A stretch of DNA of 38,361 bases, from contig PAAY01000015.1 in assembly GCA_002698985.1 (NCBI GenBank), positions 1-38,361 on the forward strand, given 5' to 3'. Under the pieces are notes generated by a model. That model saw only the letters and a program-made list of their open reading frames with translations. It did no database searches and was not told the origin of the DNA. Shown here one piece after another: positions 5,941-38,361 of the stretch (position 1 is the first letter of the stretch; every line of letters begins with the position of its first letter). The translations under genes were made by a program, and so were the position numbers. The stretch is from Saprospirales bacterium. GTDB taxonomy: Bacteria; Bacteroidota; Bacteroidia; Chitinophagales; Saprospiraceae.

Positions 5941-6549
5941 ATGATTATTGACATTCTCTTCCTGATTGTTGCGGGCTGGGGATTTTACCAGGGCTTCACC
6001 AAAGGTATCATCAAGACCTTTTTCACCATTTTCAGCATTCTGTTCGGACTGGTGGTAGCTTTCAAGCTGTCGCCTGCGGCAACCCGGTTCCTGGAAACGG
6101 CCTTCAACACGGAAAGTGCCTTCACCTTCGTAGCCGGCTTTCTCATGGTGTTTTTGCTGACCATGATTGTCATCCGGCTCCTCGCCAAATTCGTAGAAAG
6201 TGCGCTTCAGTCCGCCAACATCAATTTCATCAACCAGGTCATAGGAGGAATCGTTTTGGGAGCCCTGTACACCCTGATGCTGAGTTACCTGATCTGGTTT
6301 GCCGATGCTTCGCACATCATCAAGGAAAAGACCAAAACCGAATCGATGACTTACACGCAGTTGAAGGAATTCCCTTCAAAAATGAAGTCGGTTTACGAAT
6401 TTGTGAAGCCGGCCTTTCGTGATTTCTGGAACGAGTCCATCCGCTTCATGGACAAGTTGGAGGAGCAGAACCTCGAGCAAACGGATTCTCAACACACCAT
6501 TTTTGACGTTCCGGATGAGAATTCAACTCAGAACAGTTCAGGCCAATAA
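5941..6549 (+). CDS. CvpA family membrane protein
   Basis: A 202-residue protein with four predicted transmembrane helices in the first ~120 residues (about 2-20, 28-48, 62-82 and 98-118). The GFYQGFTKGIIKTFFTIFSILFG-type start is typical of CvpA/colicin V production proteins (Pfam CvpA), which begin with a D-hydrophobic-x-x-G-x-x-G-x-x-x-G pattern. The last ~80 residues are charged, cytoplasmic and poorly conserved in the family. CvpA proteins affect envelope and stress functions, but no biochemical activity is agreed on. The gene ends at the left target-site duplication of an inserted element. It is convergent with mnmG. Confidence 0.85.
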   Translation: MIIDILFLIVAGWGFYQGFTKGIIKTFFTIFSILFGLVVAFKLSPAATRFLETAFNTESAFTFVAGFLMVFLLTMIVIRLLAKFVESALQSANINFINQVIGGIVLGALYTLMLSYLIWFADASHIIKEKTKTESMTYTQLKEFPSKMKSVYEFVKPAFRDFWNESIRFMDKLEEQNLEQTDSQHTIFDVPDENSTQNSSGQ

Positions 6550-6551
6550 CG
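6541..6551. repeat. Left putative target-site duplication
   Basis: GGCCAATAACG here matches GACCAATAACG at 7031-7041 at 10 of 11 positions. The two flank exactly the outer ends of the inverted repeats of the element at 6552-7030. This copy contains the stop codon of the cvpA-type gene. Confidence 0.55.
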
Positions 6552-7030
6552 CTATCGATTACCCACAAATCCAATCTCATCGAAAAGTGTCTCTGCAACA
6601 CGGCTCCATTGAATGTGAAAAAATCATTTTTCAATCGCTTTTCCTGGCTGAGAAAAAAGGCCCCGATAAACATCAGCCATCTTGTAACCCGCTGTTTCCT
6701 GTCTCGTCGACAGCCCGTCTGGCCGCCGGACAGGACAGGCAACGGCGGGAATAATGCCAGTCCCCCTACCCACATCAAACTTTTATTCAGAACATCACAT
6801 CAGGATTGACCAATCACCATTGTAGCTGGAAAAGTTGATGCTGATGCTTTGTAAAGATGTTTGATGTAGAGAGGGGTTTGTCCGGCATCCCCTCGCTGAA
6901 GCAAGGGGTTCCAAGATGTTTGATGGAGTGGAAGGTTATTGGCCCACAGGAATTTAACCTGAATCTTCAGGATCAAATTGCTCAGGCAATACCCTCAAAG
7001 GCGGAATGACGGTTTGTGGGTAATCAATAG
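6552..7030. mobile_element. MITE-like non-autonomous element with TIRs, copy 1
   Basis: A 479-bp element. Its left end CTATCGATTACCCACAAA and the reverse complement of its right end (7013-7030) match at 17 of 18 positions, forming terminal inverted repeats. Near-identical 11-bp direct repeats abut both ends (6541-6551 and 7031-7041), as expected for target-site duplications. It fills the whole gap between the convergent stop codons of the cvpA-type gene and mnmG. No intact transposase is encoded. A short frame reading IECEKIIFQSLFLAE recurs in the second copy at 38161. Relative to that copy, this one has a ~42-bp extra palindromic segment near 6708-6749. The right half contains a direct repeat GATGTTTGATG (near 6857 and 6912) and a CCCCT/AGGGG hairpin. 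Confidence 0.7.
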
Positions 7031-7041
7031 GACCAATAACG
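7031..7041. repeat. Right putative target-site duplication
   Basis: GACCAATAACG, 10 of 11 identical to 6541-6551. It lies two bases before the stop codon of mnmG (7044-7046, minus strand). Confidence 0.55.
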
Positions 7042-27816: not shown

Positions 27817-27865
27817 CCCTAAACCCTAAACCCTAAACCCTACACTCTACACCCTAAACCCTACA
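27817..27865. repeat. Seven-unit CCCTAAA-type tandem repeat
   Basis: Seven consecutive 7-bp units read CCCTAAA x3, CCCTACA, CTCTACA, CCCTAAA, CCCTACA, in the 114-bp gap between ccmB and the ccmC-like gene. The unit equals the plant-type telomere repeat, but here it is an ordinary bacterial spacer microsatellite. Confidence 0.9.
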
Positions 27866-27871
27866 CCAAAT

Positions 27872-30292: not shown

Positions 30293-30336
30293 GAGGAGGT
30301 TTTTAGAAGGTTTTTGGAAGGTTTTTATTAGGTTTT
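30293..30336. repeat. Degenerate AGGTTTTT tandem repeat
   Basis: Four or five units of about 10-12 bp of the form GGTTTTTRGAA directly precede the DUF1801 start (minus strand reads AAAAACCTTCC repeats). Similar arrays lie before moaD (19121-19170) and after the last gene (38111-38160). Confidence 0.6.
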
Positions 30337-30373
30337 TTACAACTGACAGCACTCGAAGTGCTGTCAGTTGTAA
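30337..30373. repeat. Perfect 17-bp stem palindrome
   Basis: TTACAACTGACAGCACT (30337-30353) and AGTGCTGTCAGTTGTAA (30357-30373) are perfect inverted repeats around CGA. It covers the stop codon of the small ORF at 30364-30489. Confidence 0.9.
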
Positions 30374-38092: not shown

Positions 38093-38110
38093 AAAAGGAC
38101 ATCAGTAGGA

Positions 38111-38160
38111 GGTTTAGAGGAGTTGAGAGAGGTTTAGAGAAGTTGAGAGAGGTTTAGAGG
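38111..38160. repeat. 20-bp tandem repeat, 2.5 units
   Basis: GGTTTAGAGGAGTTGAGAGA, GGTTTAGAGAAGTTGAGAGA and a half unit GGTTTAGAGG run directly into the left end of the element copy at 38161. Confidence 0.85.
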
Positions 38161-38361
38161 CTATCGATTACCCACAAATCCCAATCTCATCGAATAGTGT
38201 CTATGCAACTCGGCTTCATTGAATGTGAAAAAATCATTTTTCAATCGCTGTTCCTGGCTGAGGAAGAAGGCCCCGATTACATCAGCCATCTTGTAACCCG
38301 CTGTTTCAACGGCGGGAATAATGCCAGTCCCCCTACCCACATCAAACTTCTATTCAGAACA
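38161..38361. mobile_element. MITE-like element, copy 2, cut by the window end
   Basis: It starts with CTATCGATTACCCACAAA, identical to the left terminal repeat of 6552. Apart from a ~42-bp segment missing here, it aligns with 6552-6794 at about 90% or better, so both are copies of one element. In this copy a frame from ATG 38203 (MQLGFIECEKIIFQSLFLAE and on) stays open to the window end, while copy 1 is frameshifted within it. The right end lies beyond the window, so its target duplication and full length cannot be judged. Confidence 0.75.

Follow-up and report, generated by a model that had tools for sequence, protein, structure and literature searches.

The non-coding stretch between a CvpA-type gene and mnmG in the contig of a Saprospirales bacterium analysed here (38,361 nucleotides, hereafter the window) raises the question of what kind of repeat lies there, which transposition system put it in place and what it carries. 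From sequence inspection it had been predicted to be a MITE-like element with an IS4-like parent, recently inserted with an 11-bp target duplication. The reading favoured here, at a probability of about 87%, is a MITE moved in trans by a Tn5/IS50-type transposase, with a captured orphan REP/BIME cluster as its cargo. The REP/BIME core and the 10-bp target arrays go beyond the original prediction. The features concerned are collected in Table 1.

Table 1. Coordinates and strand of the element, its hairpins and its surroundings in the window
Feature	Position	Strand	Remark
Left target-site duplication, 11 bp, GGCCAATAACG	6541..6551	.	holds cvpA-type stop codon
Left TIR CTATCGATTACCCACAAAT	6552..6570	+	IS50-subgroup end consensus 7/7
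First REP-like hairpin of BIME core (ACATCAGCCATCTTGTAACCCGCTGTTTC...AACGGCGGG)	6670..6749	+	
42-bp palindromic insert, loop of first REP hairpin	6699..6740	.	other copies: none or ~21 bp
Inner REP-like arm (ACATC.AACTTTTATTCAGAACATCACATC)	6772..6801	+	
Inner REP-like arm, inverted partner (GATGCTGATGCTTTGTAAAGATGTTTGATGT)	6837..6867	-	
Second outer REP-like hairpin (CCCCTCGCTGAAGCAAGGGGTTCCAAGATGTTTGATG)	6889..6925	-	
Right TIR, element end	7012..7030	-	IS50-subgroup end consensus 6/7
Right target-site duplication, 11 bp, GACCAATAACG	7031..7041	.	
Array of five 10-bp GTTKAGAGNN units, directly 5' of second copy	38109..38160	+	
Second element copy	38161..38361	+	interrupted by contig end

A multi-copy element with an empty site in a congener

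The element spans 6552-7030 (479 bp), is apparently non-coding and has the ends CTATCSATTACCCACARAT. The 18-bp TIRs proposed for it are real, with 6552-6569 and 7013-7030 complementary at 17 of 18 positions, and the window holds three matches to the TIR pattern at up to 3 mismatches, where shuffled sequence averages 0.01. The 11-bp flanks, likewise as proposed, agree at 10 of 11 positions and directly adjoin the TIRs. As a bare 11-mer with at most 1 mismatch the flank is common (4 matches in the window, shuffle mean 1.09), so the weight rests on its position at both TIR edges and on the 11 bp found at other copies. The neighbours are indeed convergent, with PF02674 (CvpA type) on the left and MnmG/GidA on the right. 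The element had been placed exactly at the CvpA-type stop, which needs correction: the TAA (6547-6549) is itself part of the 11-bp duplication, with the element beginning 2 bp later. Only two ORFs of at least 100 aa (111 and 110 aa) overlap the element, and each begins or stops outside it. The description as MITE-like is apt for a 479-bp, multi-copy sequence with paired TIRs and no transposase gene. A protein-coding origin was considered for a minus-strand frame near one end, protein-like by eye, and was rejected; 1-bp indels occur between copies.

Further copies in the same genome had been anticipated, and BLAST of the element returned 47 places, which include several pieces of single copies and lie in many cases at contig ends. 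The second copy foreseen in the window begins with an exact TIR (38161-38178), just 201 bp before the contig end. The TIR at up to 3 mismatches has 39 matches in the own genome versus 8 for the reversed control; at up to 2 mismatches the own genome has 34 and the congener G003 has 54, with 0 for the reversed control in each. Twenty-four distinct two-ended copies on single contigs (6 in the own genome, 18 in G003) were available for comparison, and 11 bp is the best-fitting duplication length in 19 of them, with a perfect 11/11 match in 10 of 24. The best length in the other five is 10 bp (L082, L083), 12 bp (L003), 9 bp with a poor match (L080) and 9 bp in L002 because its contig ends. In addition, contigs C8 and C58, which were paired by eye, each hold part of one copy that has GGCGCCTTTGG on both outer sides. 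Across the 24 copies no ORF of at least 90 aa spans a copy, and two ORFs enter an edge by 14-25 bp; a rough ORF rule places 11 copies between convergent, 9 between tandem and 2 between divergent genes, with 2 unscored. Copy L002 had no match in plasmid or phage collections.

The duplication is a true target duplication, as had been suspected, since G003 lacks the segment and retains one copy of the duplicated stretch. At this empty site the CvpA-type gene and mnmG are adjacent and a single GGTCAGTAAGC stands where the window has GGCCAATAACG twice; the MnmG of G003 is 94% identical to that of the own genome. In four more congeners (L217-L220) BLAST aligned mnmG alone and not the left neighbour, and these are uninformative on the empty site. 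The original prediction spoke of a recent transposition, of which the transposition geometry holds and the word recent is overstated, the longer copies being only 80-84% identical to the window copy. Over ungapped columns, the 6 two-ended copies of the own genome have a mean pairwise identity of 0.904 and those of G003 one of 0.906, and the mean across the two genomes is 0.739. This higher identity within than between genomes seems to mean that much of the copying postdates the split of the two species, or that copies were homogenised within species.

Ends of the Tn5 type and transposases in related genomes

The IS4-like parent expected from the long duplication is supported both by the ends and by the transposases of IS with similar ends, and the best subgroup is IS50/Tn5 instead of classical IS4 or IS231. 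The IS50 end consensus CW------Y---CA-A--W- is matched at 7/7 positions by the left end and at 6/7 by the right, and shuffled left ends attain 7/7 in 411 of 100000 trials. Among the other IS4 subgroups with at least 4 defined positions the best fits are 4/7 and 4/8, and the IS10 consensus, which has two defined positions only, is also matched (2/2). Related short TIR elements occur in several genera of the family; the family-wide TIR search gave matches in 27 of 398 genomes, and the reversed control gave single matches in three genomes. A clean duplication is lacking in several other TIR elements, including L118, L128, L231 and L252. The last of these (L252, JAKLJF010000208.1, 4015-4256) measures 242 bp, has the same ends with GGGTTTAGAGGG-like repeats at its flanks and lies in a MAG titled Thermoanaerobaculia, which reflects either cross-phylum transfer or a misplaced contig.

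The likeness of the TIR-element ends to the Tn5 end prompted a search with PF14706 (Tn5 N-terminal domain), which matched in 20 of 398 family genomes and in 0 of 14 of the genus. An IS that shares the TIR had been named as a thing to look for, and this was borne out in part: IS with similar, not identical, ends are present in G160 and G383, of other genera, and none was found in the own genome. In G160 there are six IS copies of 1546-1549 bp with TIRs CTGTCAATTACCCACAAAA, four of them with exact duplications (9 bp in L204, L205 and L206, 10 bp in L201); L184 has no exact duplication, and the left end of L207 as set belongs to a neighbouring element. G383 carries a 1487-bp IS with the TIR CTTTTGATTACCCACAGAA and the 11-bp duplication ACTTTGAAAGT. 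The TIRs of the G160 and G383 IS agree with the left TIR of the window at 16/19 and 15/19 positions, respectively. Among the 11 Tn5-like IS copies whose ends were set, exact duplications flank 6 (9, 9, 9, 10, 10 and 11 bp) and not the other 5. Four transposases match PF14706 (4/4), PF01609 (3/4) and the NCBIfam IS4 model NF033590 (4/4), and the one compared with the PDB (P0002) hits Tn5 transposase chains at E 2e-27. Moreover, D90, D188, Y321, R324, E328 and K335 are invariant in five aligned transposases, with the spacing of the YREK motif as it is defined in the accessible part of PMC2266710. Two other Tn5-like IS of the family, L187 and L191, lie inside a CCTGCC..GGCAGG palindrome, and L187 has the exact duplication CTGCCGGCAG.

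Neither PF14706 nor a 5-member profile detected a Tn5-like transposase in the own genome, an assembly of 102 contigs that is 95.5% complete and breaks at these repeats, and present mobility is therefore putative. In G009 and G003 the same 5-member profile gave weak matches of IS4-like type. Near 20 single TIR-like matches in relatives and the own genome, several of which resemble chance matches within coding genes, no transposase of a parent IS was recognised in the frames by eye. Tn5-like remnants in G011 and G004 were rejected as parents: L208, L210 and L214 have no TIR at up to 5 mismatches, and L212 and L213 have only 5-mismatch matches.

The duplication length raises the question of whether the element could derive, as a remnant or as a MITE, from a different IS4 subgroup, namely IS4 or IS231. 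Published duplications, according to the accessible part of PMC2266710, are 8-9 bp for IS50, 10-12 bp for IS231 and 10-13 bp for IS4, so that 11 bp suits the latter two better. The ends point the other way, since the IS231 consensus is matched at 3/8 positions (without its CAT ends) and that of IS4 at 4/7, and the Tn5 N-terminal domain is present in the transposases of the IS with similar ends; one of these IS, L183, whose ends are like the element's, itself has an 11-bp duplication. An IS4 or IS231 origin is thus very unlikely, and the parent was most likely a member of the IS4 family, IS50 (Tn5) group, with duplications longer than the published ones. Direct repeats of 8-9 bp define the IS50 subgroup and 11 bp is found here; given this length and the 9-11 bp of the related IS, the element is classed as a derivative of a Tn5-like clade and not as a standard IS50 member.

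A REP/BIME core between the ends

Palindromic units alternate in the core of the element, as in REP/BIME. Parts of the interior recur in other congeners (L077-L079) on contigs without a listed TIR match. A REP/BIME unit of the congener G006, which folds into a long nested hairpin, is matched in 10 of the genus's 14 genomes, the own genome and G003 included. In addition, hairpins of the core type lie on both sides of one Y1-transposase (RAYT) gene each in G006 and G009. Each of the two REP hairpins has optional palindromic inserts (~21/42 bp in the first, ~22/43 bp in the second), which in the 24-copy alignment are never placed outside the loop. Those of the first loop are found in either orientation, a pattern that would suit small palindromes with hairpin loops as their targets.

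The hairpins are carried by the TIR elements of G000/G003, G006 and G287, which beyond their TIRs have nothing else in common at E 1e-3. These three element lineages are read as three captures of hairpins; the alternative is that they descend from one ancestor and that the remaining interior turned over fast. The three TIR elements of G006 form one family (82-98% identical), and two of them, L236 and L237, have perfect 11-bp duplications and, at one end, a REP arm that directly adjoins the TIR; such an element is little beyond TIR-BIME-TIR. TIR elements without core motifs occur in G013, G160, G413 and G082. Inverted repeats are also seen inside the core-free elements L130, L098 and L123 (and, by eye, L115), and hairpin cargo may thus be common in this MITE group.

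It could be argued that the whole unit is a plain REP/BIME moved by a Y1 transposase, with the TIRs and 11-bp repeats secondary, and the core shared with the BIMEs that flank one RAYT gene each in G006 and G009 speaks for this. The 11-bp duplications, on the other hand, adjoin the TIRs and not the core, and core-free elements show these ends and duplications as well. The genus has 47 Y1 matches, of which 22 loci were examined; apart from those in G006 and G009 with the flanking hairpins, the core motif at up to 4 mismatches is absent from all 20, including the single own-genome locus and the two in G003. Mobilisation of the whole unit by RAYT is accordingly extremely unlikely.

Deep hairpins, invariant stem positions and a convergent-pair bias (11 of 22 scored copies) would suit selection on a structured RNA or on a regulatory repeat between genes, with the repeat geometry a by-product, but this too is highly improbable, since the empty orthologous site of G003 and the target duplications mean insertion, Rfam gave 14 weak matches at 6 loci with none at the gathering score, and covariation is weak (3 of 90 pairs). 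Covariation was likewise set aside as proof of RNA function, compensatory changes being too few. The inserted element may later have taken on a terminator role.

Target arrays, proposed mechanism and known systems

The Tn5 target consensus is GNTYWRANC. Compared with it, 19 distinct insertion-site 11-mers score 4.58/7 versus 2.51 when shuffled, with 4.58 attained in 0 of 5000 shuffles, although many of them are variants of one array unit and thus not independent. The score is maximal at the exact centre of the duplication. Poor fits include the target of the window copy (4/7) and GGCGCCTTTGG (2/7). In the relatives, several insertions (e.g., L098, L183, L232 and L236) split a palindrome by eye.

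Most copies lie in tandem arrays. When the 50 bp on either side are pooled, a 10-bp repeat GTTNAGAGNN (also GTTNAGAG, and written as well GTTTAGAGGG) is present in two or more units at 19 of the 24 copies, compared with 52 of 20000 random 100-mers of the window; at 20 further single ends, one unit is found within 50 bp in 15 and two units in 12. The period is 10 bp in 42 of 44 spacings at 30 loci of the own genome. Within the genus, three-unit arrays have 275 and 186 matches in the two element-rich genomes and 5 in the other 12, and the reversed control has 1 match, in G007. Two further arrays of the window were observed: an 11-bp tandem array of AGGTTTTTAGA (x3.7) at 30297-30337, without an adjoining element copy, whose unit is similar to GGTTTTTAGGG, the target of the G003 copy L137; and a 7-bp array of CCCTAAA (x7.3) at 27817-27867, a telomere-like sequence.

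The arrays could themselves be footprints, that is, target duplications stacked at ~10 bp by repeated insertion and excision, such that the elements help to build their own targets. Within the genus, arrays are abundant solely where the element forms large families, in two genomes that are closely related and may reflect one shared event; elements in G160, G413 and G287 also lie, by eye, within arrays of other ~9-10-bp units. Against this, the unit of the own genome is 10 bp and the duplication 11 bp, and array matches outnumber elements. A footprint origin is therefore unlikely, and plain target preference accounts for the data more simply. If footprints they were, array unit and duplication length would covary from genome to genome.

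Taken as a Tn5-type MITE, the element would be recognised at its ~19-bp ends by a Tn5/IS50-type transposase of the IS4 family acting in trans, and would be inserted by cut-and-paste with an 11-bp staggered cut. The preferred targets would be GGTTTNGAACC-like intergenic sites; most of the assembled copies of the own species and G003 stand in the 10-bp tandem arrays, and the preference for such arrays may be a property of the transposase. The cargo would be an orphan hairpin cluster of a RAYT (TnpA_REP) system, captured between Tn5-type ends.

Compared with known systems, the element resembles the IS50 subgroup (Tn5) in its left end, in the Tn5-like transposases of IS with similar ends and in targets that fit the Tn5 consensus in register. 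IS50 is reported, in the accessible part of PMC1525189, to favour clusters of target-like sequences in work with designed targets. Unlike IS50, the element has no transposase, and its 11-bp duplication exceeds the 8-9 bp given in the part of PMC2266710 at hand. It is like QMITE2 of Coxiella burnetii and BrickBuilt of Porphyromonas gingivalis, which the available portions of PMC10969869 and PMC4596501 describe as short, non-coding, multi-copy, mainly intergenic and bounded by TIRs. These portions name no Tn5-type parent for either, and, unlike both, the present element has a REP/BIME cluster and lies mostly in 10-bp arrays. Among the matches listed in a search from which most subscription literature falls outside, no title concerned a Tn5/IS50-derived MITE with REP cargo or MITEs of Saprospiraceae.

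The core of alternating hairpins, also found beside RAYT genes of two congeners, is like that of REP/BIME/REPIN systems with RAYT (PMC2817692 and PMC3116915, in the parts accessible), whereas Tn5-type ends enclose it here and the Y1 gene of the own genome has no such hairpins. ISRm22 of Sinorhizobium meliloti, as described in the accessible part of PMC1525189, is also of the IS4 family and targets palindromic, often clustered intergenic repeats, but it is a full IS with 6-bp duplications, for which REP is target and not cargo. On the reading favoured here, two mobile systems usually treated apart would be joined in three lineages as a Tn5-type MITE with RAYT-type REP/BIME cargo. In nature and on a genome-wide scale, the element would also exemplify Tn5-type insertion into phased target-like arrays, and duplication length (9, 10 or 11 bp) becomes a comparable variable within one transposase clade.
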